A program made the translations under genes and the position numbers. A DNA stretch of 64,000 nucleotides from Alphaproteobacteria bacterium 46_93_T64. GTDB lineage: Bacteria > Pseudomonadota > Alphaproteobacteria > Sneathiellales > Sneathiellaceae. Under the pieces are notes generated by a model that worked only from the letters and a program-made list of their open reading frames with translations, was not told the origin of the DNA and searched no databases. Every line of letters begins with the position of its first letter. Position 1 is the first letter of the stretch. The DNA lies in the NCBI GenBank assembly GCA_002163135.1, contig MAAN01000041.1:219635-283634 (forward strand), given 5' to 3'. This document shows, in pieces, positions 34,372 through 51,077 of the stretch.

Positions 34372-34472
34372 GGCTCTATAATACAAATTTATGTCCCTAT
34401 TATGCAATCCCTTATCATTTGTTCCTGTCAGACTAGGGAGATAAAATTACGGAGATAGGGGAGCTTGCGCCG

Positions 34473-35723
34473 GTGAAATATTCAGTTTTCTCATTGATGA
34501 AGAATGCCTTGTCTGGCCACAAGCACTGGGGACGTGCATGGCGAGACCCAGAACCTAAGCCCAATTATGATGTTGTCATTATTGGTGGTGGCGGTCATGG
34601 GCTTGCGACAGCTTATTATCTGGCTAAGCAGCACGGCATTAACAATGTGGCTGTATTGGAAAAAGGATGGATTGGGTCTGGCAATGTTGGCCGTAATACA
34701 ACGATCATTCGTTCAAACTATCAGCTTAACGGCAATGAGCCATTTTACGAATGGTCGATGAAGCTTTGGGAAAATCTGGAGCAGGATATGAACTTCAACG
34801 CAATGGTATCCCAGCGCGGTGTGATCAACCTGTACCATTCTGAAACCCAACGTGATGATTACGCGCGACGAGGGAACGCCATGCGTCTCCACGGTGTTGA
34901 TGCCGAGTTGCTTGACCGTGAACAGCTGCGGAAAAAGCTTCCTTATCTGGATTATGAAAATGCCCGGTTTCCAATCCAAGGCGGACTGATGCAGCAGCGC
35001 GGCGGTACGGTGCGTCATGATGGTGTGGCTTGGGGGTTCGCGCGTGGTGCAGATGCATGCGGTGTCGACATTATTCAGAACTGTGAAGTGAAGGGTTTCA
35101 AAATAGAAAATGGCACAGTCCTCGGCATAGAAACTTCAAGAGGTTATATTGGTGCTAAAAAAGTTGGTATGGCTGTTGCCGGGCATGCAAGTCAGGTAGC
35201 GTCAATGGCGGGGATGAAATTACCCATCGAGAGCCATGTGCTGCAGGCATTCGTGTCCGAAGGCATAAAACCGTATTTAGACAATGTGGTTACTTTTGGC
35301 GCGGGTCATTTCTATGTTTCTCAGTCGGACAAGGGCGGGTTGGTCTTTGGCGGTGATATTGACGGATATAACAGTTATGCACAACGCGGTAATCTGCCCA
35401 TGGTCGAACATGTTATCGAGGCCGGTGTTGCAATGATACCAGGCCTCAGCCGGATTAAAGTTCTGCGCTCTTGGGGCGGCATCATGGATATGTCTATGGA
35501 TGGGTCTCCCATAATCGACAAAACTCATATTAATGGTCTCTATCTGAATTGCGGATGGTGCTATGGCGGTTTTAAGGCGACACCAGCTTCTGGCTGGTGT
35601 TTTGCCCATACCATTGCGACGGATTCGCCGCATGATTTGAGTGCAGCATACCGATTGGATAGATTTAAGTCAGGCAACATGCTTGATGAAAAAGGGATGG
35701 GCGCCACGCCTAATCTTCACTGA
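34473..35723 (+). CDS. soxB: Sarcosine oxidase beta subunit family (SoxB/MgdA-like)
   Basis: 416 residues starting at a GTG (34473) with GGGGAG nine bases upstream. It is an FAD-dependent DAO-fold oxidoreductase: YDVVIIGGGGHGLATAYYLAK is the dinucleotide-binding motif, GNVGRNTTIIRSNY is typical of SoxB, and TVRHDGVAWGFARGA holds the His that carries FMN covalently in heterotetrameric sarcosine oxidase. NCGWCYGGFKATPASGW is the C-terminal FAD contact. It would oxidise an N-methyl amino acid to the amine and formaldehyde or methylene-THF. N-methylglutamate dehydrogenase subunits are homologous, so the substrate is open. Confidence 0.88.
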   Translation: MKYSVFSLMKNALSGHKHWGRAWRDPEPKPNYDVVIIGGGGHGLATAYYLAKQHGINNVAVLEKGWIGSGNVGRNTTIIRSNYQLNGNEPFYEWSMKLWENLEQDMNFNAMVSQRGVINLYHSETQRDDYARRGNAMRLHGVDAELLDREQLRKKLPYLDYENARFPIQGGLMQQRGGTVRHDGVAWGFARGADACGVDIIQNCEVKGFKIENGTVLGIETSRGYIGAKKVGMAVAGHASQVASMAGMKLPIESHVLQAFVSEGIKPYLDNVVTFGAGHFYVSQSDKGGLVFGGDIDGYNSYAQRGNLPMVEHVIEAGVAMIPGLSRIKVLRSWGGIMDMSMDGSPIIDKTHINGLYLNCGWCYGGFKATPASGWCFAHTIATDSPHDLSAAYRLDRFKSGNMLDEKGMGATPNLH

Positions 35724-35737
35724 GGGAGTAGAAAATT

Positions 35738-36091
35738 ATGTCCATTCATTGTCCTTACTGTGGCGTTCGTCCAATCGAAGAATTTTCTATGCGCGGAGAT
35801 GCAACTACGATGCGTCCCGGTACCAGTGATCCTGCCAATATGGATATGAAACTGGAGGCTGAGTGGCATGATTATGTTTATCTGCGTGATAACCCCAAAG
35901 GCAAATTTGAAGAGTACTGGCACCATGTCGGCGGCTGTCGGGTTTGGTTGGTCGTCACGCGCAATACCATTACGCATGAAATCTATTCCGTTGTAATTGC
36001 CAGTGAGCATTCTATATCCAAGCAGCTTTCCCATGCCGTCGATCTGAAAATGACTAAAGACGCGCCTACAAAAGAAGGACCGTCATCATGA
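35738..36091 (+). CDS. soxD: Sarcosine oxidase delta subunit family (SoxD)
   Basis: 117 residues. The N-terminal CPYCGVRPIEEF carries two of the zinc ligands, followed by the EAEWHDYVYLRDNPKGKFEEYWHHVGGCRVWLVVTRNT segment, where a His and a Cys complete the site in known SoxD proteins. It binds structural zinc in the four-subunit complex. The gene begins 14 bases after soxB and overlaps the next gene by four bases (ATGA). Confidence 0.9.
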   Translation: MSIHCPYCGVRPIEEFSMRGDATTMRPGTSDPANMDMKLEAEWHDYVYLRDNPKGKFEEYWHHVGGCRVWLVVTRNTITHEIYSVVIASEHSISKQLSHAVDLKMTKDAPTKEGPSS

Positions 36092-39000
36092 GCGGATTTC
36101 GTCTTTCTTCAGGTGGTCTTATCGACCGTAATAAGCCTATTCAATTTACCTTTGATGGTAAGACATATTCAGGTTTTGAGGGCGACGTATTGGCGTCAGC
36201 CTTGATTGCCAATGGTGTCAATCTGATGGGCCGTAGCTTCAAATATCATCGGCCTCGCGGGCCGGTTACTGCAGGATCGTCGGAGCCTAACGCCTTGGTC
36301 GAAATAGGGGAGGGTGGCCGCAAAGAGCCGAATGTACGGGCAACAATGGCGGAGGTGTCAAGCGGCCTTGTTGCCAAGAGCCAAAACCGTTGGCCTTCGC
36401 TGGATTATGATATTGGTGCAATCAACCAAATACTATCACCCTTTTTGGTCGCCGGCTTTTATTACAAAACTTTTATGTGGCCAAAGAGTTTTTGGGAAAA
36501 GATATATGAGCCATTGATCCGTAAGGCGGCTGGATTAGGCTCGGCCACCTATAAGGCGGATCCGGATCGATATGAAAAAGCGTATGACACTTGCGATCTC
36601 TTAGTCATTGGCTCAGGCCCTGCAGGATTGATGGCGGCCTTGGTCGCTGCTCGGTCCGGCGCACGCGTTATTATAGCTGATGAAGGTGCCATTCTCGGCG
36701 GATCATTGCTTTACGAAGATGAGATGATCTCGGGCAAATCAGCACGTAACTGGCTCTCGGAGGCCGTTGCTGAGCTCTCATCAATGGATGAGGTGCGTGT
36801 TTTGCCGAGGACGACCGTGTTTGGCTGGTACGATGGCAACATATTTGGGGCTCATGAGCGCGTGCAGAAGCATGTCGCCAATCCGTCCCTTTTTAAGCCG
36901 GTAGAACGCACATGGCGGATAAATGCAAAGCGTGCTGTGTTGGCGTCTGGAGCCGAAGAAAGGCCCCTTGTTTTTGGTGGCAATGACAGACCCGGTGTCA
37001 TGTTGGCATCAGCGATACGTACATACCTTGCCCGATTTGCGGTGTCGCCGGGCAAGCGGGCTGTCGTTTTCACTAATAACTCATCAGGTTACGAAGCTGC
37101 ACGGGCGTTGATTGCGAAGGGTGTGGATGTCGCAGCCGTGCTGGACAGTCGGCTTGAGATCTCTGATCCTGACCTAGGTGAAGTGCCGGTTATTAGGGGT
37201 GCGGTCATCACTGATGTCAAAGGGGGCAAGGAAATTACCTCTGTTGAATATTCTGCGGGAAAAGGCAGCCAGCGCATCAACTGTGATTTTGTCGCCATGT
37301 CTGGCGGCTGGAATCCGATTGTACATCTGGCGTGTCATCGCGGAAAAAAACCGGTATGGAGCGAGGATATAGCTGCTTTTGTATCTCCAGATGTCGGAGA
37401 GGGATTGGTAGCGGTTGGCGCAGCTGCGGGCAAATTCTTGTTGTCTGAATGCTTAGCCGATGGCGCTGAAAAAGGCCTTGCTGCTGTGCAGAGTTTAGGA
37501 TTTGAAGTCGCCATTAATGACGTGCCAAATGTGAGCAGTAATCAAACATTCAGTATCTCGCCGCTGTGGAGCGTGGCCCAATCGACTGGCAAAGCATTTG
37601 TCGATTTTCAGAATGATGTCACGGTAAATGATGTGCCTCTGGCAGCCCGCGAAGGGTATACGGATGTTGAACTAACCAAGCGATATACCACACTCGGCAT
37701 GGCCACAGATCAGGGCAAATTGTCGAACATTAATGGTCTGGCAATTTTGGCCGAAGCAACGGGTAAAAGTATTTCGGATGTGGGTACCACCACGTATCGA
37801 CCAAATTATTCACCTGTGAGTTTTGGAGCGTTGTCCGGACCTTTCCGCGGTCATCATTTTCAGCCTTCGCGCCTAACACCAACTCACCAATGGGCAAAAG
37901 AACATACGGCGGTATTTGTTGAAACCGGTTTATGGTATCGGCCAATGTGGTTTACCCGGCAGGGAGATGCGACTTGGCAAGACAGCATGATCCGCGAAGT
38001 GAAAAACACCCGTGAAAATGTTGGTGTGTGTGACGTGTCGACCTTGGGTAAGATAGACGTGCAGGGACCAGATGCCGCTGAATTTATGAACCGCCTGTAT
38101 TGCAACGGTTGGAAAAAGCTACCTGTTGGGCGGGCTCGCTACGGCTTGATGTTGCGTGAAGATGGCCTTGTTTATGACGATGGGACATCAAGTCGTTTAT
38201 CTGATGATCATTATTTCATGACGACGACAACGGCAAAAGCGGCCGGAGTGCTGTCTCACATGGAGTTTTGTCTTCAGGCATTATGGCCAGAATTGGATGT
38301 TCAATGTGTTTCCGTAACCGAACAATGGGCTCAGCTGGCTGTGGCTGGACCACAAGCGCGAAGTACAATGCAAAAGATTGTTGCGGACGATATTTCTGAT
38401 GATGCATTTCCTTATATGGGGGCACGTGAAGTAACTCTTGAATGCGGTATCAAAGCACGACTTTTCCGTATTTCCTTTTCTGGGGAACTTGCGTACGAGC
38501 TTTCCGTTCCCGCTGATTTCGGTGACTTGATCATACGGCTGATTATGAATGCTGGAGCAGAATTTGGCATTATGCCATATGGTACAGAAGCTCTGAAAGT
38601 CATGCGCATCGAAAAAGGACATGTTGCAGGGGGTGAGCTTAATGGAACGACCACAGCATATGATTTAGGTCTTGGTAAAATGATGTCGACCAAGAAAGAT
38701 TATATCGGTCGCGTCATGGCGACCCGAGAGGCCTTTCACGAGCCGAACCGCTGGAATGTGGTTGGTCTTTTGCCTCTCAATAAGACTGAAGAAATCTTAC
38801 CGGGAGCTCATATCTTAAATATTGGGGATGAGCCTTCGATGAAAAACGACCAAGGTTACATTACTTCAAGCACCTATTCTCCTATGGCCGAACAGTGGAT
38901 TGCGTTGGCCTTGGTTAATAATGGTCGAAAACGATATGACGAAGTTGTGCAGGTATGGGATGATCTTCGGAAAAATTATGTACATGCCACGATTTGTGAT

Positions 39001-39687
39001 CCGGTTTTTTATGACAAAGAGCACCTCAAACTGCACGCAACAACTTTGAGTGTTGCCAAGGAAGCTTTGCCAACACTGGAGATGAAGCGCATGTCGCCGC
39101 TCGACAGTAAGATTCAGAACGGTCGGTTTGGTATGGAAACTGGTGAGGATGCTGGAGTGTCGCTGTCCATTCGTCATCCAATGTCGATCGTAATGATTAT
39201 TGCCCGAAATGGAAAATCGAGTGCCGTTTCCGAGCTGATGGAAAAGAGTTATGGCGTGACCTGTCCGCTGCCAGGGCGATCAGCAACAGGCCGTAACGTA
39301 ACCATTCACTGGACAGGAGCGGAGCAATGGATTGTCACATCCAATGATCTTGAAGAAGGTGATCTATATGAGCAACTCGCTAGATCGCTGGAGGGGCTTG
39401 CCTCAATAACCGATCAAAGTCACGGCCGTCTCACGCTCTCTGTCACCGGTATCCACGCGCGTAATGTTCTGTCAAAGGGCACGTCGGTGGATTTGCACCC
39501 GCGTGTCTTTGGAACAGGACACTGCGCTGTCACCCAAATGGCCCATGTTGGCGTACATGTTGCCTGTACTGGAACGAACGAATTTGAACTGTTGCTGTTC
39601 AGGGGATTTGCTGAAAGTTTCTGGGAATGGCTCACTGAAATGTCGGAGGAGTTTGGCTATGAAGTAAAGGGCGCGCAGGTAGATTAA
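36088..39687 (+). CDS. soxA: Natural fusion of sarcosine oxidase alpha and gamma subunits (SoxA-SoxG)
   Basis: 1199 residues. Residues about 1-983 are the alpha subunit: a ferredoxin-like Fer2_4 N-domain (QFTFDGKTYSGFEGDVLASAL), a pyridine-nucleotide-binding domain (LLVIGSGPAGLMAALVAARSG), and a C-terminal GcvT/THF-binding domain (VGVCDVSTLGKIDVQGPDA, then YGTEALKVMRIEKGHVAGG). Residues about 984-1199 are a gamma subunit (SIRHPMSIVMIIARNG, TIHWTGAEQWIVTS, SHGRLTLSVTG, VHVACTGTNEFELLLFRGFAESFWEWL). In the usual operon soxG is a separate gene after soxA; here no stop intervenes. The fusion should fix the alpha:gamma ratio at one. Confidence 0.9.
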   Translation: MSGFRLSSGGLIDRNKPIQFTFDGKTYSGFEGDVLASALIANGVNLMGRSFKYHRPRGPVTAGSSEPNALVEIGEGGRKEPNVRATMAEVSSGLVAKSQNRWPSLDYDIGAINQILSPFLVAGFYYKTFMWPKSFWEKIYEPLIRKAAGLGSATYKADPDRYEKAYDTCDLLVIGSGPAGLMAALVAARSGARVIIADEGAILGGSLLYEDEMISGKSARNWLSEAVAELSSMDEVRVLPRTTVFGWYDGNIFGAHERVQKHVANPSLFKPVERTWRINAKRAVLASGAEERPLVFGGNDRPGVMLASAIRTYLARFAVSPGKRAVVFTNNSSGYEAARALIAKGVDVAAVLDSRLEISDPDLGEVPVIRGAVITDVKGGKEITSVEYSAGKGSQRINCDFVAMSGGWNPIVHLACHRGKKPVWSEDIAAFVSPDVGEGLVAVGAAAGKFLLSECLADGAEKGLAAVQSLGFEVAINDVPNVSSNQTFSISPLWSVAQSTGKAFVDFQNDVTVNDVPLAAREGYTDVELTKRYTTLGMATDQGKLSNINGLAILAEATGKSISDVGTTTYRPNYSPVSFGALSGPFRGHHFQPSRLTPTHQWAKEHTAVFVETGLWYRPMWFTRQGDATWQDSMIREVKNTRENVGVCDVSTLGKIDVQGPDAAEFMNRLYCNGWKKLPVGRARYGLMLREDGLVYDDGTSSRLSDDHYFMTTTTAKAAGVLSHMEFCLQALWPELDVQCVSVTEQWAQLAVAGPQARSTMQKIVADDISDDAFPYMGAREVTLECGIKARLFRISFSGELAYELSVPADFGDLIIRLIMNAGAEFGIMPYGTEALKVMRIEKGHVAGGELNGTTTAYDLGLGKMMSTKKDYIGRVMATREAFHEPNRWNVVGLLPLNKTEEILPGAHILNIGDEPSMKNDQGYITSSTYSPMAEQWIALALVNNGRKRYDEVVQVWDDLRKNYVHATICDPVFYDKEHLKLHATTLSVAKEALPTLEMKRMSPLDSKIQNGRFGMETGEDAGVSLSIRHPMSIVMIIARNGKSSAVSELMEKSYGVTCPLPGRSATGRNVTIHWTGAEQWIVTSNDLEEGDLYEQLARSLEGLASITDQSHGRLTLSVTGIHARNVLSKGTSVDLHPRVFGTGHCAVTQMAHVGVHVACTGTNEFELLLFRGFAESFWEWLTEMSEEFGYEVKGAQVD

Positions 39688-39708: not shown

Positions 39709-40623
39709 TTACGGCCGTTGTTCGGGGATTTCCTTTACGCCGATCTGTTCCACAAGAACTGGCATTTTATCAAGAACGTGTTCACGAAATGCGGCAGCGA
39801 CGGGGCTTCGGGTGACGCCGCGACGTTCAATCAATCCGACAACGCGTTCTACACTTGTATCTTCAAGTTCAAGGGCTGCTAACCCAGCGAGCAGATGAGT
39901 GGTTGCCAAGGCGGGTAATAGTGTAATGCCTAGGCCTGATTTAGTCATCGCGAGCAGGGAGGTCACATTCCTTACTGTAAGGGACGCCTTGTCGGCCAAT
40001 TCTTGATATTGTGGTGACGTGATTTTGTCTGATGCTCCATTCAGGATCAAAATTTCATTTTCCAAATCAGACCATCTAACGGCTCTCTCAAGTTTTGAAA
40101 GAGCCGATGCTGTGCTGCATATGACCTTGAACTGATCGCGAAATAGGGGCTCAAATGTGACCAATGTATCCTTTATCGGTTGGCCAGCAATACCAATATC
40201 AGCTTGCCCGGTTTCCAGCATTAAACGAACAGCACGGCTGTCGATATCAAGTAATTCCATGACCACATTGGGGCGATTTTTTATGAATCCCGGAAACAAT
40301 GAAGGGATTAGATTGGCTGCAACTGATGGCACACAAGCCAAAGTCAAATGGCCAATCTTGTTTTTTGCATATGCGTGGATTGTTGCGATGGCTTTGTCGT
40401 AATTGCTTACCTGCATTCGTCCAGTTTGTAACACGAATTCCCCTAACGCCGTAAGATTGTTTTTACGGTCGCTTTCAAATAGCTGCCCGCCAATCTCTTC
40501 TTCCAATTGTTTAAGCGTCATGGAGATAGCAGAGGCCGTTCTGCATATTTGTTCTGATGCTTCCTTGATGTTGCCTAACTCTGCAACAGTCACAAAAACC
40601 CGAAGTGCTTCCAACTTAATCAA
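39709..40623 (-). CDS. LysR-family transcriptional regulator
   Basis: 304 residues with the N-terminal winged helix-turn-helix (about 1-60: LEALRVFVTVAELGNIKEASEQICRTASAISMTLKQLEEEIGGQLFES) and a LysR substrate-binding domain (about 88-290). It diverges from the aldehyde-dehydrogenase operon with 96 bases between, a standard LysR arrangement, so it probably controls that operon. Its end faces the soxA-soxG gene with only 21 bases between. The inducer is unknown. Confidence 0.88.
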   Translation of the reverse strand: MIKLEALRVFVTVAELGNIKEASEQICRTASAISMTLKQLEEEIGGQLFESDRKNNLTALGEFVLQTGRMQVSNYDKAIATIHAYAKNKIGHLTLACVPSVAANLIPSLFPGFIKNRPNVVMELLDIDSRAVRLMLETGQADIGIAGQPIKDTLVTFEPLFRDQFKVICSTASALSKLERAVRWSDLENEILILNGASDKITSPQYQELADKASLTVRNVTSLLAMTKSGLGITLLPALATTHLLAGLAALELEDTSVERVVGLIERRGVTRSPVAAAFREHVLDKMPVLVEQIGVKEIPEQRP

Positions 40624-40719: not shown

Positions 40720-42171
40720 ATGAGCAAATCATTCAAAAACCTTATCGCCAATGACTGGCTTTCAGGTGCAGATTCAATAGAAAACCGAAACCCATCGGAC
40801 GTTAGCGATGTTATCGGGGAATATGCCCAAGCAAACGTTGAGCAACTCGAGATAGCAGTGTCGGCTGCCCGTAACGCGTTGCCTGCCTGCCGAAATATGG
40901 GAATTGAAGCGCGCCAAGTTGCGTTGGATATGATCGGCCGAGAAATGATGGCACGCTCGGAAGAGCTTGGAAGACTTCTTAGCCGTGAAGAAGGGAAGCC
41001 GCTGGCTGAAGGTAAAGGTGAAGTTTATCGGGCAGGGCAATTCTTTACTTACTATGCAGCAGAAGTGCTACGCCAGTTAGGCGAGAATGCAGATTCCGTA
41101 CGACCAGATATTGAAATTGACGTACGCCGCGAGCCAATGGGCGTTGTGGCCGTAATTTCACCCTGGAATTTTCCAACAGCAACGGCAAGTTGGAAAATTG
41201 CTCCGGCTCTAGCGTATGGCAATGCTGTAATTTGGAAGCCGGCAAACCAGACACCTGCTTCTGCATGGGCATTGGCAGAAATTATTTCGCGCGCTGGATT
41301 GCCAGATGGGGCATTTCAACTTGTTATGGGTCCGGGTTCAATCATTGGCAATGGTTTGGCGGGACACCGTGGAGTGGATGCTGTTACGTTTACGGGCTCC
41401 TATGCTGTTGGCCGTCAGGTAGCTGCAGCCGCTGCGCCGAACCTGACCAAATACCAATTGGAACTTGGCTCAAAGAATGCTCTGGTCGTGATGGAAGATG
41501 CGAATATTGATATGGCGGTTGCAGCCGCCATGGCTGGTGGTTACTCCAGCACCGGGCAGAAATGCACGGCTTCTTCTAGGTTACTGGTGCATAGTGACGT
41601 GCATGATGTTTTTGTTGAAAAGCTGGCAGATACATTAAATAAAATCAAAGTTGGCCATGCATTGAAAGAGGGTACCCAGATGGGTCCCGTTGTTAGTGCA
41701 GGGCAATTAAAATCCAATCTTGACTGGATGGACCGGGCACGCGAACATAGGGTTAATATCATAACAGGTGGGGAGCAGCTCAGTTTGGCAGAAGAGGGAT
41801 ACTACATGTCTCCGGCACTGCTAACCGAGACAAGCAATGATATGGATTTCAATCGTGAGGAAATGTTCGCCCCGATTGCTGCAGTACAACGCATCAGTTC
41901 TTATGAAGAAGGTTTGGCAATCACTAACGATACTGAATACGGATTGGTGGCAGGTATCTTTACCCAGTCGATTGCGCGTGCTACGCATTTTCGCAGGAAT
42001 GTAGAAACCGGTTGTGTAACGGTCAATCTCCCAACGGCAGGTACTGATTACCATGTACCATTCGGAGGCCGGAAGAATTCAAGTTCTGGCCCTCGCGAGC
42101 AAGGGCGCGGCGCAGCTGAGTTCTACACGCAGATCAAAACAGCCTATATATATGCAGGTGAACCGGAGTAA
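40720..42171 (+). CDS. NAD(P)-dependent aldehyde dehydrogenase, ketoglutarate-semialdehyde-dehydrogenase-like
   Basis: 483 residues. VAVISPWNFPTATASWKIAPALAYGNAVIWKPANQTP is the family cofactor region, FTGSYAVGRQVA follows, and the catalytic Cys is in STGQKCTASSR. The general base motif reads LELGSKN instead of the common LELGGKN, keeping the Glu. The late stretch VETGCVTVNLPTAGTDYHVPFGGRKNSSSGPREQGR is characteristic of 2,5-dioxovalerate (alpha-ketoglutaric semialdehyde) dehydrogenases used in hydroxyproline, arabinose and sugar-acid routes. First gene of an operon with M19, an unknown protein, a DUF3726-like protein and an Ldh-type reductase, six bases before the next gene. Confidence 0.85.
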   Translation: MSKSFKNLIANDWLSGADSIENRNPSDVSDVIGEYAQANVEQLEIAVSAARNALPACRNMGIEARQVALDMIGREMMARSEELGRLLSREEGKPLAEGKGEVYRAGQFFTYYAAEVLRQLGENADSVRPDIEIDVRREPMGVVAVISPWNFPTATASWKIAPALAYGNAVIWKPANQTPASAWALAEIISRAGLPDGAFQLVMGPGSIIGNGLAGHRGVDAVTFTGSYAVGRQVAAAAAPNLTKYQLELGSKNALVVMEDANIDMAVAAAMAGGYSSTGQKCTASSRLLVHSDVHDVFVEKLADTLNKIKVGHALKEGTQMGPVVSAGQLKSNLDWMDRAREHRVNIITGGEQLSLAEEGYYMSPALLTETSNDMDFNREEMFAPIAAVQRISSYEEGLAITNDTEYGLVAGIFTQSIARATHFRRNVETGCVTVNLPTAGTDYHVPFGGRKNSSSGPREQGRGAAEFYTQIKTAYIYAGEPE

Positions 42172-42176
42172 TCTTT

Positions 42177-43166
42177 ATGTCGGAAGCCCCCATTATTGAT
42201 TGTTTGCAGTATACAAACTGGTCAGAAAAAATATTTCGTGAAATGCAGGCAGGTGGCGTTCATGGCGTTCATGTAACGATTGCCTATCATGAAACCTTTC
42301 GCGAAATGGTGCTTAACCTTGAACAGTGGAACCGGTGGTTTGAACAATATCCGGATCTAATTTTTTTGGGAAAAAACGGAAACGATATTCGCCGTGCACA
42401 GGCTGAAAACCGGACAGCAATCTTTTTTGGGTTTCAAAACCCATCACCTATCGAAGACGATTTGGGTTTAATTGAAATATGTCACACGCTTGGTGTGCGT
42501 TTCATGCAGCTTACCTACAACAATCAGTCTTTACTCGCCACGGGTTGTTATGAGGAAGTGGATACAGGGGTTACCCGTTTTGGACGGCAAGTAATTGCAG
42601 AAATGAATAGGGTCGGACTAGTGGTTGATATGAGCCATTCAGGTGATCTCTCAACACTGCAAGCTATAGAAATTTCCGAGCGCCCCATCGCCATTACTCA
42701 CGCCAATCCATCAGATTGGCATCCAGCGTTGCGAAATAAATCTGATGAGGTCATCAAGGCGCTGACACAATCGGGCGGGATGATGGGGTTCTCTCTATAC
42801 CCCCATCACCTTAAAGGCAAATCAGCTTGCTCGCTTAATGACTTCTGCCAAATGATCGCACATGCCGCAGATCGCTATGGAGTTGAACATTTTGGTATCG
42901 GTTCAGACCTTTGCCAGGATCAGCCAGACGAGATTGTCACATGGATGCGCAATGGACGCTGGTCAAAGAAATTAGACTACGGTGAGGGATCAGCTGCTGC
43001 TGCTGGTTTTCCACCAGAACTTGGATGGTTTGACAATAATGGGCATTTTTCCAACATCAGTCATGGGTTGGGAGATGTAGGCTTTTCAAGTGATGAAGTA
43101 TCCGCGATTATGGGGGGGAATTGGCTGCGTTTTTATGAACAGTCCTTTGAACCGGAGGTGAAATGA
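42177..43166 (+). CDS. Atypical peptidase M19 (renal-dipeptidase-like) protein of betaine-catabolism type
   Basis: 329 residues of the M19 amidohydrolase fold. The usual N-terminal metal motif DGHND is absent: the protein opens IIDCLQYTNWSEKIFREMQAGG. Later elements remain: FGFQNPSPIEDD, VRFMQLTYNNQSLLATGCYE, VVDMSHSGDLSTLQAIE, ITHANPSDWHPALRNKSDE, HFGIGSDL. As I recall, the M19-like protein beside the dimethylglycine genes of Pseudomonas has the same altered opening, so this is a betaine-linked subfamily. It may hydrolyse an amide or lactam rather than a dipeptide. It overlaps the next gene by four bases. Confidence 0.78.
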   Translation: MSEAPIIDCLQYTNWSEKIFREMQAGGVHGVHVTIAYHETFREMVLNLEQWNRWFEQYPDLIFLGKNGNDIRRAQAENRTAIFFGFQNPSPIEDDLGLIEICHTLGVRFMQLTYNNQSLLATGCYEEVDTGVTRFGRQVIAEMNRVGLVVDMSHSGDLSTLQAIEISERPIAITHANPSDWHPALRNKSDEVIKALTQSGGMMGFSLYPHHLKGKSACSLNDFCQMIAHAADRYGVEHFGIGSDLCQDQPDEIVTWMRNGRWSKKLDYGEGSAAAAGFPPELGWFDNNGHFSNISHGLGDVGFSSDEVSAIMGGNWLRFYEQSFEPEVK

Positions 43167-44866
43167 CACTTGCAGATTTACCGCAGGAACAAACCCACCT
43201 AAAGGCATCGTTAAGATCTCCGGATGAGGTCATGAACCTCACGCGTATGGGATCAGCGTTTCCAACCCGTCTGAGCTTCATGCGCGTTCTTGTCCGCCGA
43301 CTTAGCAATGAAAATGCAGAAGTCACTCGCCCAGTATGGGAAATGGATGAAGATGGTTATGGCAGCGCGGTTTACTCCGTTCAGCTTGGCGGGAAAATCT
43401 ACAGCCTTGTCGCCTTTTCTACGCCTTTGGATCCTGAACGCCGCACGGATCGGGTCATAGCGGAAGCTTGGGATGCCAGTTTTACTCTATTTGATGGCGT
43501 GCCCAATCGACAGGACCTTGATAGACTTGAAGCACAAGCCCCCAAACAAGAGGCCGGCAGGTTTGAAGCCAGTGAGTTGGTGCTTAGCAGGGCGAATAAA
43601 TCAGTACGGCTTTTTGAACATGTAGTTGATTGTCTGTCAAAAGGAGAACAGCCAGATACAGATATGATTGGATCCATTGGCTATCTGATGCGGACGACGG
43701 CCGTATACGGCAACGGCAAGTTCGGGTTTTCTGATCGTGTTCAGATAGCGGATCGCACGGCATTAGCAGGCCCATTCCAAGCAGAAATGTTGACCGTCTG
43801 GCTGATCCGCGGGTTTACACATGACCTCGTTGAACATATTGCTGAGGCGCGTAATCCCCAAAAATTTGTCCCGCTTGCCAAAGAGGTGAAGAGGACCCTC
43901 GGAATTGGAAATTCCACTGGCTTGGGCATGGCGCCTTTCCTGATCAAACATAATATATTACTCAATAACTGGATGAAGGCCCGTGAAACGGCTCTTGCGC
44001 GTGTTCGTGCCATTGGCTCCAGCGATACGTCCATAATTAACCAGGTTCGAGAATTATTGACGAGGGCGCTTCTTCATGTAGACCAATGGAACGTCGACGA
44101 TCAGCGCCAGATGAACCGTATCGAAGTTTTACGCACCGATCTTGTCGAAGTTGACTATTTGATAACGCCGAGTTGGCTTGAATTGCCAAATCCTTGGGAC
44201 CGACTGATTACTATTTCTGCCAAATGGTCAATCGAATGTCAGGAACTAATTGTCGCACTGGTGCTTGAACCCCATGGTGAACTGATCGACGACCTGAGCG
44301 ATCGCATGGCCGACAATGAGGGACAAAGGCTTGTTCCCTCAATGGCGCTTCAGGAATTATTACAACTGTTGGAACAAAATTATCAATGGGCACTTGATGT
44401 GGACTTTGAGCATCCGGAGGCCACGACATTTTTCTGGTATACTTCAGAGGAAAAACTGGAGCCGCGCTTAGGTATTCGATTAGAAGAACTCGGGGCTGAC
44501 TTGGAGTTGCCTCTGGACATTGCCCGTCAGGCTAAAGCATTTCATCAAGATCTTTCCAGTAATGACCCGCATCAAACAATCGCAATGTTTTTGTTAGCCC
44601 ATCCTCAACACCGCCACATTGCCCGAAGGGTGCAGACGTCAGAACATCATCCATATTCAGAAATCAAGAACAACTTGATCGGTGCGGATTGCATGCCACT
44701 TGATATTCTGAGATGCAAATTATCTTTCTTTGGCGCGGCGAAATGTGACCCCAAATCAAATCTCTGGACCCGGATTAATATGTATCAGGGTGCACCTTTG
44801 TTCGAAGATATTGGGAACACGAATACAGATAACTGGTGGCTTCCTATACAGGAAACAGCGAGATGA
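43163..44866 (+). CDS. Conserved-looking protein of unknown function, 567 residues
   Basis: I do not recognise a named domain. The ATG overlaps the M19 stop (ATGA) and the stop overlaps the next start (ATGA), so it is tightly coupled to both neighbours. No signal peptide or membrane helix is evident, so it is probably cytoplasmic. A beta-rich N-part (about 30-100, including YGSAVYSVQLGGKIYSLVAFSTPLD) is followed by a mostly helical body with GKFGFSDRVQIADRT, GIGNSTGLGMAPFLIKH and a Trp/His-containing stretch near residue 340. The motif-like GNSTGLGMAPF may bind a phosphate or cofactor. The context argues for an enzyme or subunit acting on an N-methylated compound. Confidence 0.8.
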   Translation: MTLADLPQEQTHLKASLRSPDEVMNLTRMGSAFPTRLSFMRVLVRRLSNENAEVTRPVWEMDEDGYGSAVYSVQLGGKIYSLVAFSTPLDPERRTDRVIAEAWDASFTLFDGVPNRQDLDRLEAQAPKQEAGRFEASELVLSRANKSVRLFEHVVDCLSKGEQPDTDMIGSIGYLMRTTAVYGNGKFGFSDRVQIADRTALAGPFQAEMLTVWLIRGFTHDLVEHIAEARNPQKFVPLAKEVKRTLGIGNSTGLGMAPFLIKHNILLNNWMKARETALARVRAIGSSDTSIINQVRELLTRALLHVDQWNVDDQRQMNRIEVLRTDLVEVDYLITPSWLELPNPWDRLITISAKWSIECQELIVALVLEPHGELIDDLSDRMADNEGQRLVPSMALQELLQLLEQNYQWALDVDFEHPEATTFFWYTSEEKLEPRLGIRLEELGADLELPLDIARQAKAFHQDLSSNDPHQTIAMFLLAHPQHRHIARRVQTSEHHPYSEIKNNLIGADCMPLDILRCKLSFFGAAKCDPKSNLWTRINMYQGAPLFEDIGNTNTDNWWLPIQETAR

Positions 44867-45495
44867 GAGTATCCTTGTATGAGATAGCAACTACTTTGCG
44901 AAAGGCCAGTATAGGTTCTGGGCTGCCTGTTGGTTTGGCCGATGATATTGGCGAAGCAGCGAAGTGGCTAGCCGTTCGCGAGTGTGACTGTGTAGATCCT
45001 GTACTGACAGCCATTGTTGCTGGCATGAGCACAGTTGAAATGCATGTAAGCGATGAGGGCACTTTGGTGTTTCCTGACGCGCGTATCGCAGTTTGCGGTC
45101 CTTCAGTAATTGACCTACTTGTTGGTGAAGCACGCTATAATGAAGCTTATTTGATCAACGCAGATTCAGCGTTACTAATGATTGGCATTGCTGGCGTCGT
45201 CGCAGAGCATCACGGTATGGAGTTTCAATTTTGTTTTTCAAATGGTGCAAAAGCACAGGTGACGGCAGATGAGTTGGTAACACAGGGCGAGATGCCTTCC
45301 TCTAACTGCGATATTGCTCTCACTTGTCGAAAAACTGATGTTACTCAATCAAAACCTTCCATACCAATACAGGGTGTGAAAGTAGCTATTGAGGCTTGGC
45401 GACAAGCTGAAAATCTCGCAGCTAAAACTTATGTTCCAGAAAGCAAGAAATCCAGAACTGGCGGCGCCGGTGCTGGTCTCACTGATAATGATTAA
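44863..45495 (+). CDS. DUF3726-like protein
   Basis: 210 residues from the ATG at 44863, which overlaps the preceding stop. The opening VSLYEIATTLRKASIGSGLPVGLADDIGEAAKWLAV matches, from memory, the start of DUF3726 proteins, which occur in alphaproteobacteria next to Ldh-family reductases. CGPSVIDLLVG and AHSS-like segments are not diagnostic of a catalytic family. The tail (residues about 190-210) is polar and Gly-rich and likely disordered. Its coupling to the 567-residue protein suggests the two form a complex. Function unknown. Confidence 0.7.
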   Translation: MRVSLYEIATTLRKASIGSGLPVGLADDIGEAAKWLAVRECDCVDPVLTAIVAGMSTVEMHVSDEGTLVFPDARIAVCGPSVIDLLVGEARYNEAYLINADSALLMIGIAGVVAEHHGMEFQFCFSNGAKAQVTADELVTQGEMPSSNCDIALTCRKTDVTQSKPSIPIQGVKVAIEAWRQAENLAAKTYVPESKKSRTGGAGAGLTDND

Positions 45496-45516
45496 AACAT
45501 AGAAACGGGTAAAATT

Positions 45517-46527
45517 ATGTCTGACATTCATATGACTTTGGAAGAAGTTGGAGAGATTGCCCAGGCAGCTCTCGAAGGAGCTGGAGCCAGCGCCCAAAAT
45601 GCGGCATCAGTTGCCCGCTCGACAATGAAGGCTGAGCGTGACGGTATTCGTAGTCATGGTCTGCTATATGTCCCTATCTATGCCGAACATGTTGCTTGCG
45701 GGAAAGTCGATGGAATGGCTAAACCGGTTGTTGAACGTTCAAGGCCAGGGGCAATTCGCGTCGACGCTGCCTCTGGTTTTGCCCATCCGGCAATTGATGC
45801 GGGATGGCAGGCACTGAGTGAGGCTGCGCGGGAAAATGGTGTCGCCGCCATGACCATTTATAATTCCTATAATTGCGGCGTTCTCGGTCATCATGCTGAA
45901 CGTTTGGCGCAGGATGGTTTGCTGGGCCTTTGTTTTACGCATGCACCAGCTTCGATTGCACCAGCTGGTGGCAGAAAACCTGTGGTCGGCACCAACCCAT
46001 TTTCAATAGCTGTCCCGGACGGCAATGGCGATGCGCTTATCGTCATTGATCAATCAGCAAGTGTTATCGCCAAATCTGAAATTTTACTGCGGTCACGAAC
46101 TGGAATTCCGATTGAACCAAATTGGGCATTGGATCCTGATGGTAATCCAACTACAGATGCCAAGATCGCGTTAAAAGGGTCCATGGCCCCTTCTGGCGGG
46201 TATAAAGGATTCGGTATTGGGTTATTGGTGGAGATTATGGCGGCATGTCTGTCGGGATCTGTCTTGAGCAAAGATGCGAGCCCTTTTTCCGGCACAGCCG
46301 GAGGGCCACCGAAAACCGGTCAGTGCTTTATGGCTTTTGACACTTCAGCTTTTACCGGCTCTACTTTCTCGCAACAAGTTTTAGATCTTGCAGGTGCAAT
46401 TACTGATCAGGATGGATGCCGCCTACCAGGCTCTCGCCGACAGGATAACCGGAAAACTATTGAGCGTGAGGGTGTAAGTCTAGATGCAGAGCTCCATGAC
46501 CGTATCCGCCAGTATATTAAAAATTAG
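45517..46527 (+). CDS. Ldh/DpkA-family NAD(P)-dependent oxidoreductase
   Basis: 336 residues of the malate/L-lactate dehydrogenase (Ldh_2) family. The family marks are ERDGIRSHGLLYVPIYAEHV, with catalytic His in SHG, then AGWQALSEAARENGVAAMTIYNSYNCGVLGHHAERLA, GTNPFSIAVPDG and the MAPSGGYKGFGIGLLVEIMAA end. Members include delta1-piperideine-2-carboxylate/delta1-pyrroline-2-carboxylate reductase (DpkA), ureidoglycolate and 2,3-diketogulonate reductases. An imine reductase of the DpkA type would fit a route for a cyclic N-methylated amino acid. Begins 21 bases after the DUF3726-like gene. Confidence 0.83.
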   Translation: MSDIHMTLEEVGEIAQAALEGAGASAQNAASVARSTMKAERDGIRSHGLLYVPIYAEHVACGKVDGMAKPVVERSRPGAIRVDAASGFAHPAIDAGWQALSEAARENGVAAMTIYNSYNCGVLGHHAERLAQDGLLGLCFTHAPASIAPAGGRKPVVGTNPFSIAVPDGNGDALIVIDQSASVIAKSEILLRSRTGIPIEPNWALDPDGNPTTDAKIALKGSMAPSGGYKGFGIGLLVEIMAACLSGSVLSKDASPFSGTAGGPPKTGQCFMAFDTSAFTGSTFSQQVLDLAGAITDQDGCRLPGSRRQDNRKTIEREGVSLDAELHDRIRQYIKN

Positions 46528-46660: not shown

Positions 46661-47674
46661 ATGAAAAAAATTAGAAATTTAGCATTGGGAGCTATTACAT
46701 CAATCGGATTGATTGCTGCCGCTTCAATGCCAGCGGCTGCCGCGACTGAATGCGGTACCAGTGACAAAATTACGATTGCTGAAATGACCTGGTTGTCTGC
46801 CAGTTCACTTGCCTACATTACCGGTGCAATTCTGGAAGACGGCTATGGATGCAATGTTGAAATTGTGCCCGGCGATACCGTGCCAACAGCAACCTCCATG
46901 TTGACTAAAGGTAAGCCTCATATTGCGCCAGAATTGTGGGTTTCTACCGCGAGTACAATTTGGGATAAAATGATCGCAAAGGGCAATGTGTATAAAGCCA
47001 GCGACATTTTTGCCAGCGGTGGTGAAGAAGGCTGGTGGATTCCTGATTATGTTGCCAAAGCTAATCCAGATCTGAAGTCAATCACTGATCTAAAGGCAAA
47101 TGCTAAACTGTTCGCGGACATTTCAGATCTTGAAAAAGGCCGCTTGTACGGATGCCCTCCTGGTTGGGGCTGTGAGATTATCACGAATAATCTCTTCAAG
47201 GCGCTCGGCCTTGATGAAACATTCGAATTGTTTTCACCAGGTTCCGGTGCAAATCTGAAAGCATCTTTTGCTCGTCAGGTAACCCGCAAAAAACCAATTG
47301 TTGGTTATTATTGGGGACCAACAGATGTTATCGGTAAGTACAATCTTGTGAAGCTTGATATGCCTAAGCATGATGCAGAGAAATTCAAATGCCTAACCGA
47401 TAAAAATTGTCTCAATCCTGAAGTCACTGGCTGGGCCGTAGGTGAAGTTGCTGTCGCTGTTGTTACCGAAATGAAAACAAAGGCGCCAAATGTTGCCGAA
47501 TTTTTGTCAAAATTACAGGTTCCAAACGCAGAAATCAGCACCGTGTTGGCTTGGGGTGATGACAACAAGGCTTCCCCCGAAGAGGTCGCTACGTATTTTC
47601 TGAAAAATTACGCATCAATCTGGACAAAATGGGTTCCTGAAGATGTGGCTGCCAAAGTCAAAGCATCGCTTTGA
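46661..47674 (+). CDS. Glycine-betaine/proline-type ABC transporter substrate-binding protein (OpuAC/ProX family)
   Basis: 337 residues from the ATG at 46661 with TGGGAG upstream. Signal peptide (hydrophobic 9-25, cleavage after MPAAAA). The mature fold is OpuAC: KITIAEMTWLSASSLAYITGAILEDGYGCNVEIVPGDTVPTATSMLTKGKPHIAPELW, with Trp and Tyr residues likely forming the aromatic cage for a quaternary ammonium or sulfonium ligand. Several Cys pairs (for example CPPGWGCE and CLTDKNC) suggest disulfides. It heads a three-gene importer. The ligand could be a betaine, DMSP or a cyclic betaine; the cluster favours the compound degraded by the enzymes upstream. Confidence 0.87.
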   Translation: MKKIRNLALGAITSIGLIAAASMPAAAATECGTSDKITIAEMTWLSASSLAYITGAILEDGYGCNVEIVPGDTVPTATSMLTKGKPHIAPELWVSTASTIWDKMIAKGNVYKASDIFASGGEEGWWIPDYVAKANPDLKSITDLKANAKLFADISDLEKGRLYGCPPGWGCEIITNNLFKALGLDETFELFSPGSGANLKASFARQVTRKKPIVGYYWGPTDVIGKYNLVKLDMPKHDAEKFKCLTDKNCLNPEVTGWAVGEVAVAVVTEMKTKAPNVAEFLSKLQVPNAEISTVLAWGDDNKASPEEVATYFLKNYASIWTKWVPEDVAAKVKASL

Positions 47675-47829: not shown

Positions 47830-48702
47830 ATGGCAGAAAACTTCCCCAAATTATTTGATACACGTTCTTTTCGTATCAATATGGATGATGGTTTTAACTG
47901 GATTGTTGCCAGTTATGGCGAAGCCATGGAGATCATGTTCCTCCCAATCCTCAAAGCGCTAATCGCCATGGAAAAGTTTCTTCAATGGCTGCCTTGGTAT
48001 ATTGTGCTGGCGGTTCTGGTTGCCTTGACGTATCTAGCCTGCCGCAGTTGGAAAGCCGCATTAAGTACAGGCGTGATGATGTTCTTGATCGGTGTTATTG
48101 GGATTTGGGACCCGGCAATGGCGACGATAGCCTTGATGATTACCTCTACGCTATTGGCCATTCTGATCGGCATACCGGTGGGCGTTCTTATGTCACGCTC
48201 CAACACCATGCAATCGATCACGTTACCAATTCTTGACATTATGCAGACCATGCCCATCTTCGTATATCTTATACCCTTTGTTATGATTTTTGGACCGGGC
48301 AAAATTCCAGCATTGTTGGCCACTATCGTATTTGCAATTCCTCCTGTGATCCGTCTGACCAACCTCGGAATTCGCCAAGTTGATGCAGAAGTGATTGAAG
48401 GTGTAACCGCCTTCGGTGCAACCACCAGACAAAGACTGATAACGGCGCAAATTCCACTCGCAATGCCAACCATAATGGCTGGTATAAATCAAACCACTAT
48501 GATGGCGCTTTCAATGGTTGTGATTGCCTCAATGATTGGAGCCGGTGGATTGGGGTATCAGGTACTTCAGGGTATCCAGAGGTTAGAAGTCAGTCGCGGA
48601 CTTCTGGCGGGGCTTGGCATTGTGTTTCTTGCCATTATTTTTGATCGCATTGCTCAGGCCTATGGTCGCCGCATGCAGCAACACCTCAATATCGGGGAGT
48701 AA
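47830..48702 (+). CDS. Glycine-betaine/proline-type ABC transporter permease (ProW family)
   Basis: 290 residues with about six membrane helices after a roughly 45-residue amphipathic N-part. The ProW signature is in LLAILIGIPVGVLMSRSN, PILDIMQTMPIFVYLIPFVMIFGPGKIPALLATIVFAIPPVIRLTNLGIRQVD, the EGVTAFGATTRQRLITAQIPLAMPTIMAGINQTTM coupling region and SMIGAGGLGYQVLQG. It starts 155 bases after the binding-protein gene, beyond two hairpins, and is followed by the ATPase after four bases. Confidence 0.9.
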   Translation: MAENFPKLFDTRSFRINMDDGFNWIVASYGEAMEIMFLPILKALIAMEKFLQWLPWYIVLAVLVALTYLACRSWKAALSTGVMMFLIGVIGIWDPAMATIALMITSTLLAILIGIPVGVLMSRSNTMQSITLPILDIMQTMPIFVYLIPFVMIFGPGKIPALLATIVFAIPPVIRLTNLGIRQVDAEVIEGVTAFGATTRQRLITAQIPLAMPTIMAGINQTTMMALSMVVIASMIGAGGLGYQVLQGIQRLEVSRGLLAGLGIVFLAIIFDRIAQAYGRRMQQHLNIGE

Positions 48703-48706
48703 TCCA

Positions 48707-49885
48707 ATGGCAAACAACCCTATCAAAATCAAAGTTGAAAACATCTATAAAGTTTTTGGCTCCGATCCTGCCGCAGTAATGGAATCTGTTAAAGCAGGGA
48801 TCAGCAAGAGTGAACTGCTGGAAAAAAATGGTCATGTTATTGGTGTGCGCGATGTCAGCTTGGATATTCCTGCGGGTAAAACCTTTGTGATTATGGGGTT
48901 GTCAGGTTCAGGCAAGTCTACACTCATCCGTCATTTCAATCGACTAATAGATCCAACTGCTGGACGTATTCTGGTTGATGGCGAAAACGTTATGGATATG
49001 TCTGAAGCAGAGCTTCGTGATTTCAGGCGCCATAAGATTTCAATGGTGTTTCAGCGATTTGCCTTGCTCCCGCATAAAACCGTTCTTGAAAATGTTGTTT
49101 ACGGCCTCCTTATCTCGGGCATGACCAAAGCTGAGGCGATTGAAAAGGGCATGCAACAGATCGACCTTGTTGGGTTAAGTGGTTTTGAGCATCGTTACCC
49201 AAACCAGCTTTCAGGCGGCATGCAACAGCGGGTTGGCTTGGCGCGTGCATTGGCAACAGATGCTGAAATTCTGTTGATGGACGAGGCTTTCAGTGCCCTT
49301 GATCCGCTCATACGAAACGACATGCAGGACCAGCTTAAGGAGCTACAATCGCGTTTGCAAAAAACCATTGTCTTTATTACCCACGATCTTGATGAAGCCC
49401 TGCGCATTGGCGATAATATTGCCATCTTGAAAGATGGTGAGTTGCGGCAGGTTGGAACAGCATCGGATATTTTGCTCAACCCGGCAGATGATTACATTGA
49501 ACGTTTCGTCCGTGATGTGAACCGAGCAAGAATTGTTACAGTTGGATTCGTTGCAGAGGCAGCAGCCAGCCTTCCTTTAAGTGACGTTTCAGAAAGTCGT
49601 TGTGTGAGTTTACTGAAAGACAATTCGGCTATAATCGTAACAAAAGATGGTCAGGCTAAGAAGATTATCAACCGTGACACACTCGCCCGAAATGGCTTTC
49701 AGGGCCTTATGTCAAATGGGACAGAGTTACAGGATCTGATCTGTATCAATCAGGATGCCACTTTGGAGGAAAGCTTCTCCTTGTTAGGAAGCAGCAATGG
49801 TATTGCCGTCGTCACCGACAACAAAACCCACCCGGTTGGTGTTATTACATCAGAAGCTGTGCTAAATGCCATGGCAGGGAAGTGA
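48707..49885 (+). CDS. Glycine-betaine/proline-type ABC transporter ATP-binding protein (ProV family)
   Basis: 392 residues from the ATG at 48707; longer starts lie within the permease gene. Walker A GLSGSGKST, the FQRFALLPHKTVLENVVYG Q-loop, signature QLSGGMQQRVGLARAL, Walker B ILLMDEAFSALD and switch His in ITHDLDEAL are all present. The leading IYKVFGSDPAAVMESVKAGISKSELLEKNG is the ProV-type insert. The C-terminal part (about 290-392) looks like CBS domains that sense ionic strength in ProV/OpuAA proteins. Confidence 0.92.
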   Translation: MANNPIKIKVENIYKVFGSDPAAVMESVKAGISKSELLEKNGHVIGVRDVSLDIPAGKTFVIMGLSGSGKSTLIRHFNRLIDPTAGRILVDGENVMDMSEAELRDFRRHKISMVFQRFALLPHKTVLENVVYGLLISGMTKAEAIEKGMQQIDLVGLSGFEHRYPNQLSGGMQQRVGLARALATDAEILLMDEAFSALDPLIRNDMQDQLKELQSRLQKTIVFITHDLDEALRIGDNIAILKDGELRQVGTASDILLNPADDYIERFVRDVNRARIVTVGFVAEAAASLPLSDVSESRCVSLLKDNSAIIVTKDGQAKKIINRDTLARNGFQGLMSNGTELQDLICINQDATLEESFSLLGSSNGIAVVTDNKTHPVGVITSEAVLNAMAGK

Positions 49886-49994: not shown

Positions 49995-50987
49995 CTAGAG
50001 TGAAAACCGTTTTCTATATTGGCCTGGGCTAACCCCGAAATGATTGCGAAAATGGTAGCGCAGACCTTCGACAGTCGGCACGCCAACGGCTTGGGCAATG
50101 TCATCGATGGAGGCTTGTGATGTTTCCAGAAGCGTGCGCGCCCGCATTAGTCTTTCCTGAATGATCCAGCGCCCCACCGGCATTCCAGTGAGTGTCGTGA
50201 ATTTTCTCTGAAAGGAACGAGTGCTCATGCCAGACAGGTTGGCCAGAGAAGATACGCTGTGAACCTTGTCGAGGTTTGACCTAATATGAACCAGCGTCGA
50301 GGATAGCCGGTGGGCCTCGTTCTCATCGGGCACAGGTTGTTCAATATATTGTGTTTGTCCACCCTGTCGATGCGCGTGCATAACCAAACGACGAGCGACT
50401 GAATTTGCAATTCGTGCACCGTAGTCTTTCCTGACGATATGCAGACACAAATCTATGCCTGCGGAACTACCAGCCGAAGTCATGATATCCTCGTCATCTA
50501 CATAAAGGCTATCTGGTTCTACAATGGCCTCCGGATACCTTGCGTCAAAATCGTGCACATACTTCCAATGTGTCGTAACCTTGCGCCCGGCAAGCAACCC
50601 AGCTGCCGCCAGAACATATATGCCAGAACAGATCGACACGATGCGTGTTCCTCTCTCATGCGCTGCCTGCAAGGCGCGGCACATAGATAAAGGAACGGCT
50701 TCATCTTTCCCCCGCCAACCCGGGACAACAATGATCTCAGCATCCTCAAGATCTTTCTCTGAACCCGACGCAGAAAACTCTAATCCACCCGCGGCCTGCA
50801 GAGGCCCATTCTCCAACGCGACCGATTGGAATGTGTACCACGCGCCCTCGATCTCAGGTCGGTGCAATCCAAAAATTTCTGCCACGATGCCAAACTCGAA
50901 GACACATAACCCGTTGTAAACTAGGGCGACGACTTTCTTGTGAGCTGCCTTATCTGTATTGGAAGATCGCTTTGGCATGTTTTCCAT
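49995..50987 (-). CDS. GlxA-type AraC-family regulator (FtrA-like)
   Basis: About 330 residues; the ATG at 50987 is used, with a GTG at 50999 and an ATG at 50978 as alternatives (the last has AGGA eight bases upstream). The N-domain (about 15-185) is DJ-1/PfpI-like: VVALVYNGLCVFEFGIVAEIFGL and RIVSICSGIYVLAAAGLLAGRKVTTHWKY, which contains a Cys at the nucleophile elbow. The C-domain is an AraC double HTH (SSLANLSGMSTRSFQRKF, ASIDDIAQAVGVPTVEGLRYHF). It closes the methylamine island on the right, convergent with the ATPase gene. FtrA-type relatives have varied targets. Confidence 0.85.
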   Translation of the reverse strand: MENMPKRSSNTDKAAHKKVVALVYNGLCVFEFGIVAEIFGLHRPEIEGAWYTFQSVALENGPLQAAGGLEFSASGSEKDLEDAEIIVVPGWRGKDEAVPLSMCRALQAAHERGTRIVSICSGIYVLAAAGLLAGRKVTTHWKYVHDFDARYPEAIVEPDSLYVDDEDIMTSAGSSAGIDLCLHIVRKDYGARIANSVARRLVMHAHRQGGQTQYIEQPVPDENEAHRLSSTLVHIRSNLDKVHSVSSLANLSGMSTRSFQRKFTTLTGMPVGRWIIQERLMRARTLLETSQASIDDIAQAVGVPTVEGLRYHFRNHFGVSPGQYRKRFSL

Positions 50988-51077
50988 CCTATTTGGCACT
51001 CCCCCATATAGCGGAATGTAAGTGGTGGCAATATATAGACGTTAGTTGAATTTTTACAATTATCAATTGGAGCTACC

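Follow-up and report, generated by a model that had tools for sequence, protein, structure and literature searches.

A probable homarine catabolic locus in an alphaproteobacterium of the family Sneathiellaceae

Introduction

N-methylglutamate dehydrogenase (Mgd) takes part in the catabolism of homarine (N-methylpicolinate), according to PMC13390433 (citing Ferrer-Gonzalez et al. 2026, Nat Microbiol 11:1531), and R. pomeroyi is known for a fast uptake of homarine (PMC12817926). Here, we analyzed a locus of Alphaproteobacteria bacterium 46_93_T64 that spans about 33.4 to 49.9 kb of a 64,000-nucleotide stretch of DNA (contig MAAN01000041.1, positions 219,635 to 283,634; referred to as the window), where Sox-type genes, a five-gene operon and a betaine-type importer follow one another. 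We propose that this is probably a homarine catabolic locus, serving uptake of the compound and its breakdown to N-methylglutamate and then to glutamate.

Ferrer-Gonzalez and co-workers are said to have described an operon, homABCDER, in Rhodobacterales, SAR116 and SAR11; elsewhere in the literature searched, no homarine genes are given. The link to Mgd is common to that pathway and to the window, where Mgd-type Sox genes adjoin the operon. The window operon comprises five structural genes accompanied by a LysR regulator, and homABCDER, too, is said to have five structural genes and a regulator. The window locus has, in addition to the Sox genes, a ProXWV importer, and its MgdC and MgdD are fused. 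Another close precedent is the degradation of trigonelline by TgnABCDE of Acinetobacter, in which an N-methylpyridinium carboxylate is opened and converted to a dicarboxylate and which comprises a luciferase-like monooxygenase, an aldehyde dehydrogenase (ALDH) and a hydrolase. The window locus likewise has an ALDH and a hydrolase, whereas no luciferase-like monooxygenase or flavin reductase was seen among the neighbors tested, and the candidate ring-opening pair is a 567-residue protein together with a DUF3726 protein.

Results

The five-gene operon

The sequence data establish the operon, its protein families, the Mgd type of the Sox genes, the Ldh_2 fold of the DUF3726 protein and the conservation of the genes. 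The operon consists of five co-directional genes on the plus strand, encoding an ALDH, an M19-like protein, the 567-residue protein, the DUF3726 protein and an Ldh_2 protein, and each open reading frame (ORF) was located. ATGA overlaps join the M19-like gene to the 567-residue gene (43163-43166) and the latter to the DUF3726 gene (44863-44866). The mechanically derived ORF of the DUF3726 gene begins at 44836, its real start being the ATG at 44863 and its end 45495. Coordinates and overlaps, read directly from the letters, bear out the gene order and the two overlapping junctions reported in a first-pass annotation made from the DNA alone, and family matches agree with its placement of Sox genes upstream and of a betaine-type importer (OpuAC/ProWV) downstream. 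Since the gene order recurs across distant bacteria, we conclude that the arrangement is not due to chance.

The Sox-type genes

Judged by tree position and identities, the Sox operon of the window is of the Mgd type. In the SoxA tree, the window protein grouped (100/99) with the R. etli SoxA from a gmaS-mgsABC-purU-folD cluster, in a clade that also contains operon-linked Shinella proteins. Its sister clade is composed of proteins from Phaeobacter (operon-linked), Thioclava (mgs-linked) and Paracoccus (dmm-linked), and the sarcosine oxidases linked to glyA (Methylobacterium, Celeribacter) or serine-ammonia-lyase genes fall outside these clades. The window SoxB (MgdA) is 75% identical to R. 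etli MgdA, compared to 50-51% identity to the beta subunit of glyA-linked sarcosine oxidase. Similarly, the regulator divergent from mgdA is 51% identical to the mgd-adjacent regulator of R. etli and 27% identical to the sarcosine-oxidase-adjacent one.

With the described MgdABCD (R. pomeroyi SPO1585-1588; R. etli p42e), the window genes share the subunit set B-D-A-G, the AraC/GlxA regulator alongside and the position in the tree. They differ in the fusion of the alpha and gamma subunits; MgdC and MgdD form a single chain of 1199 residues in the window and are encoded separately in those rhizobial and roseobacter relatives that we examined. They differ further in their host, in whose genome a search covering gmaS, and not the mgs genes, yielded no gmaS above the cut-off. 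Methylamine therefore does not supply the window Mgd along the usual route via gamma-glutamylmethylamide. Mgd genes directly adjoin the operon in Shinella, XES5, P. piscinae and TM1040.

Other Sox genes were encountered as well. A second type, belonging neither to Mgd nor to the glyA-linked sarcosine oxidases, adjoins the 567-residue gene in SAR116 (L048, L052), and the two congeners with a 567-residue gene (L145/G008, L146/G022) have related Sox genes at other places in their genomes. In one small AT-rich genome (L187), the 567-residue gene lies next to a Sox set that the tree did not include. On a Pseudosulfitobacter plasmid (L097), Mgd-type Sox genes adjoin genes for N-formylglutamate deformylase and formimidoylglutamate deiminase.

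Enzymes of recognized families

The ALDH matched Pfam Aldedh (E = 9e-151). Its best NCBIfam matches were models of the KGSADH (2-oxoglutarate-semialdehyde dehydrogenase) type, with scores below their cut-offs (479.8 vs. 770 bits for NF042993 and 465 vs. 750 bits for NF052305), so that the first-pass label "KGSADH-like" stands as to the nearest models and falls short of an equivalog assignment.

The second protein matched Pfam Peptidase_M19 (E = 4e-73), with 2i5g as the nearest solved structure. As the first-pass annotation had noticed, the N-terminal HxD metal motif is absent; this applies to the group and equally to relatives including 2i5g. The position of the bridging Glu is occupied by Gln87, a residue without variation in the group and shared by 2i5g, and His154, His175 and Asp244 are invariant in the group; a correspondence of these residues to renal dipeptidase numbering is presumed.

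The protein encoded at 45517-46527 matched Pfam Ldh_2 over its full length (residues 8-330, E = 4e-90, 302.8 bits). Its closest structure in the PDB is delta1-piperideine-2-carboxylate reductase DpkA (1wtj), in keeping with its earlier designation as an Ldh/DpkA-type reductase. It is a normal-length member of this family; its active-site region reads SYNCG where DpkA has SHHF.

The DUF3726 protein

The fourth protein matched Pfam DUF3726 (E = 1e-8), and a structural model of it was obtained (predicted local distance difference test score, pLDDT, 92; predicted template-modeling score, pTM, 0.87). A Foldseek search with this model returned Ldh_2 proteins in all of the top 27 rows (E = 7.7e-5, probability 1.00), and structural alignment to Ldh_2 gave a Z score of 12.8 (3.4 A over 181 residues), the next family reaching 6.0. 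Its 210 residues align to both ends of the approximately 340-residue Ldh_2 chain (model residues 1-190 vs. 1-337), and the missing middle part corresponds to the inserted NAD(P)-binding domain. Independent support comes from the small protein of a distant, IclR-linked version of the genes, which matched Pfam Ldh_2 (E = 7.5e-4). At the level of profiles, the N-termini of the DUF3726 protein and of the Ldh_2 protein from the operon aligned in register, though weakly (P = 0.003).

Conservation is low (mean column identity 26%) except at the extreme C-terminus, where a tail of the form GAGA...D-x-D is present in 60 of 67 sequences and the exact motif GAGAGxxDND in 50. The window protein ends in GAGAGLTDND, following the nearly invariant pattern SRxxGAGAGLTDND. 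The tail is kept in small AT-rich genomes, and the Pseudomonas and Vibrio proteins stop after GAGA or GAGE.

Based on model and alignment, the DUF3726 protein is an Ldh_2-fold protein that lacks the NAD(P)-binding domain and carries a conserved tail, a description that is new here. Compared with Ldh_2/DpkA, it shares the fold without the cofactor domain and adds the tail. Thus, although the first-pass annotation listed it among the unknown proteins, it is not a member of an orphan family, and both fold and distant homolog make it a trimmed Ldh_2 relative. We found no mention of DUF3726 in the literature searched.

The 567-residue protein

The 567-residue protein had no match in Pfam or NCBIfam, and its relatives gave no matches beyond chance. 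Its confident AlphaFold2 model (pLDDT 89, pTM 0.90) retrieved no significant fold from the PDB (best Foldseek E = 0.074) or from viral structures (best E = 0.11), and its family profile found nothing in the PDB or Pfam, in agreement with the earlier statement that it belongs to no recognized family. A resemblance of the model to GNAT-like Mom was dismissed, the best VIA-align Z score of 4.8 being too weak for use. In an alignment of 50 sequences, the invariant residues were rich in Arg, Trp, Asp and Glu, and none was His or Cys.

In Mesorhizobium 131-2-1, the 567-residue and DUF3726 proteins form a single chain (Mesorhizobium accession WP_199201047), which indicates that the two probably act together. 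We conjecture that they are the best candidate pair for activating and opening the ring. It is well conceivable, if somewhat less likely than not, that they represent a new class of ring-opening enzymes, in which the nearly invariant tail of the small subunit, a dehydrogenase devoid of its cofactor domain, would reach into the large partner of undescribed fold and variants of which would act on several heterocycles besides homarine.

Conservation of the operon and its core trio

Single-protein scans of viral and genome contig collections gave no matches; relatives were found by an alignment-based scan, which yielded more than 580 relatives of the 567-residue protein among the matches listed for the genome collection. 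Of the 385 alphaproteobacterial genomes, 53 contained a match; among the 315 of good quality, the number was 46 (about 1 in 7). The whole order LysR-ALDH-M19-567-DUF3726-Ldh-ProXWV was found in Aminobacter, Shinella and XES5 (labeled Roseateles). A BCCT transporter lies inside the operon in Ruegeria TM1040 and Phaeobacter piscinae, and Sulfitobacter and P. inhibens DSM 17395 (PGA1_RS19000-19015, with PGA1_RS19010 as the 567-residue gene) have the operon without Ldh. Further versions are present in Mesorhizobium, in a streamlined genome of 1.41 Mb (L186) and on plasmids of Pseudomonas and Vibrio; in Pseudomonas, ALDH-M19-BCCT is divergent from 567-DUF3726. Roseobacters carry the full operon, the named SAR116 contigs only the core trio (M19-567-DUF3726). 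The trio was also found in genomes of 1.2-1.3 Mb with 28-31% GC that are SAR11-like in look.

Our neighborhood counts cover the 80 loci most similar to the query, 60 of them with full flanks, and do not represent population frequencies. A betaine-type transporter was present at 9 of the 10 well-flanked loci with a linked ALDH, compared to 1 of the 50 without. In the tree of the 567-residue protein, one clade, comprising 34 roseobacter-type sequences, has no ALDH, and ALDH-linked members sit on several deep branches, suggesting that the linked form may be older.

A distant version of the trio, with a 567-residue homolog of 28-30% identity and an IclR regulator, occurs in Alloyangia (L012), Ensifer (L013) and Sinorhizobium meliloti (L014). 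It is accompanied by a polyamine-type ABC transporter and, at some loci, by genes for gamma-aminobutyrate (GABA) transaminase and succinate-semialdehyde dehydrogenase (SSADH). By analogy with the route from homarine to N-methylglutamate, GABA would arise from a ring that lacks the 2-carboxylate.

In L029 (Roseobacter sp. CCS2), L051, L060 and some 30 further loci of Rhodobacterales, 567-DUF3726, often together with M19, is surrounded by unrelated genes, with neither ALDH nor transporter. Two copies of the 567-residue gene are present in some genomes (G214, G311). A locus from the same genus as the window (L148, genome G008) has M19-567-DUF3726-Ldh without ALDH; its neighbors, assigned by eye, are of the threonine dehydratase, aldolase/racemase, aminotransferase and ornithine cyclodeaminase types, possibly a set for the beta-hydroxyaspartate cycle.

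Features of the window

The coordinates of the locus are compiled in Table 1. Beyond it, positions 51806-57037 encode a protein of 1743 residues that looks like a secreted adhesin: a cadherin-like unit of about 100 residues recurs many times in near-identical form, and calcium-binding repeats of the GGxGxD type are found toward the end.

Table 1. Genes of the putative homarine locus and adjoining regulator, with window coordinates
Feature	Position	Strand	Basis or remark
GlxA/AraC-type regulator (DJ-1/PfpI + HTH_18)	33400..34407	-	divergent from mgdA
MgdA / SoxB-type subunit (FAD, DAO family)	34473..35723	+	family match, identities
MgdB / SoxD-type subunit	35738..36091	+	family match
MgdC-MgdD fusion (SoxA + SoxG), 1199 aa, N-methylglutamate dehydrogenase type	36088..39687	+	family match, tree
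LysR-type regulator, divergent from operon; candidate "R"	39709..40623	-	equivalent place in homologous operons
Aldehyde dehydrogenase, KGSADH-like (2-oxoglutarate-semialdehyde-type)	40720..42171	+	Pfam/NCBIfam, below equivalog cut-off
M19-like hydrolase without first metal motif	42177..43166	+	Pfam Peptidase_M19; relative of PDB 2i5g
567-aa protein, no described family	43163..44866	+	AlphaFold2 model, no PDB fold match
DUF3726 protein, 210 aa, Ldh_2 fold without NAD(P)-binding domain	44863..45495	+	Pfam, model
Ldh_2 NAD(P)H-dependent reductase	45517..46527	+	Pfam; nearest solved structure DpkA (1wtj)
ProX/OpuAC-type binding protein, betaine-type ABC importer	46661..47674	+	Pfam/NCBIfam
ProW-type permease	47830..48702	+	ORF, homologous loci
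ProV-type ATPase (ABC + CBS), start uncertain (mechanical ORF from 48614)	48701..49885	+	Pfam/NCBIfam
Second GlxA/AraC-type regulator, convergent at importer end; locus membership uncertain	49995..50999	-	family match

Discussion

We infer that homarine is the substrate of this locus and glutamate its end product. In the pathway that we propose, ProXWV would import the betaine-like substrate, and the 567-residue protein with its DUF3726 partner would open the homarine ring oxygenatively at C5-C6. The KGSADH-like ALDH would then oxidize a C5 aldehyde, and the M19-like hydrolase would release the leftover carbon, probably as formate, by deformylation of an N-formyl-N-methyl intermediate. The DpkA-type Ldh_2 reductase would convert 2-(methylimino)glutarate to N-methylglutamate, which MgdA-D would finally demethylate to glutamate. 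Up to N-methylglutamate, the elements balance as homarine + 4 H2O -> N-methylglutamate + formate + 2[H], and this balance fits one oxygenation, one oxidation by the ALDH and one reduction. Family membership backs the reduction and the demethylation only; the earlier steps, as well as the step order, the formate and the identity of the ring opener, are conjecture. The first-pass annotation had envisaged the degradation of a cyclic N-methylated compound to (N-methyl)glutamate, and the Mgd-type Sox genes, DpkA as the nearest structure and the association with transporters uphold this part of it. It had also taken the pathway to be new; a conserved homarine pathway via Mgd was reported in 2026, as cited in PMC13390433, and the operon is most likely that one.

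Several observations weigh against this proposal. The ALDH scores under every equivalog cut-off, and the DpkA motif GSHHFAAL aligns with NSYNCGVLG in the subgroup of the operon's Ldh_2 protein. The 567-residue protein has no recognizable cofactor or catalytic motif, so that its ring-opening role is assigned by elimination. Several ALDH-type genomes have Sox genes of other clades only and none of the Mgd clade, and the adjacency of Sox genes to the operon is statistically weak in this small sample (2 of 10 ALDH-linked vs. 2 of 50 unlinked loci, P = 0.13). Finally, the core trio occurs without ALDH at 50 of the 60 well-flanked loci, 49 of which also lack a betaine-type transporter, and most genomes without a linked ALDH have no close ALDH anywhere. 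The link to transporters and Sox genes seen by the first-pass annotation thus holds for the full operon as regards betaine-type transporters, whereas the trio often stands without ALDH, transporter or Sox genes nearby.

This last distribution suggests that the trio acts beyond this operon, perhaps on other substrates. There is a substantial, though less than even, chance that its function is more general (e.g., hydrolysis of an N-acyl compound or cyclic imide shared by several pathways) and that ALDH, Ldh and transporter adapt it to different substrates; the distant IclR-linked version, in part with GABA transaminase and SSADH, and the genomes with two 567-residue copies point the same way. 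Such generality is compatible with homarine as the substrate of the ALDH-linked form, which, as mentioned, may be the older one. A different cyclic N-methylated osmolyte (proline betaine, N-methylpipecolate or trigonelline), degraded to N-methylglutamate or a relative, would also suit the betaine-type importer and a DpkA-type reductase, which could act on derivatives of N-methylproline or pipecolate. We consider this unlikely, as the neighbors tested include neither a Rieske-type N-demethylase, as in the known stachydrine route, nor a luciferase-like monooxygenase, as in the known route for trigonelline. It is homarine, moreover, for which a link to Mgd is published, according to PMC13390433.

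Annotation pipelines name the genes sarcosine oxidase and membrane dipeptidase, which would make the Sox genes an ordinary sarcosine oxidase in an accidental position and the operon a set for dipeptide or amino-acid degradation. We regard this as very improbable and rejected both assignments: the SoxA tree and the SoxB and regulator identities place the Sox genes with Mgd linked to mgs/gmaS, their adjacency to the operon recurs in rhizobia and roseobacters, notwithstanding the weak statistics, and dipeptidases have a first metal motif that is missing from the M19-like protein. The Sox-type neighbors in the window would thus be N-methylglutamate dehydrogenases that annotation calls sarcosine oxidases.

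Homarine is abundant in marine plankton as a major nitrogen-containing compound, and through its breakdown phytoplankton are connected with the bacterial cycling of carbon and nitrogen. If our reading as a homarine locus is true, the window offers a complete gene set for this breakdown. It includes the 567-residue protein, which has no recognizable fold, and the DUF3726 protein, a trimmed dehydrogenase whose tail hardly varies. Since the core trio is also present beyond the operon, we predict further, as yet undescribed breakdown routes.

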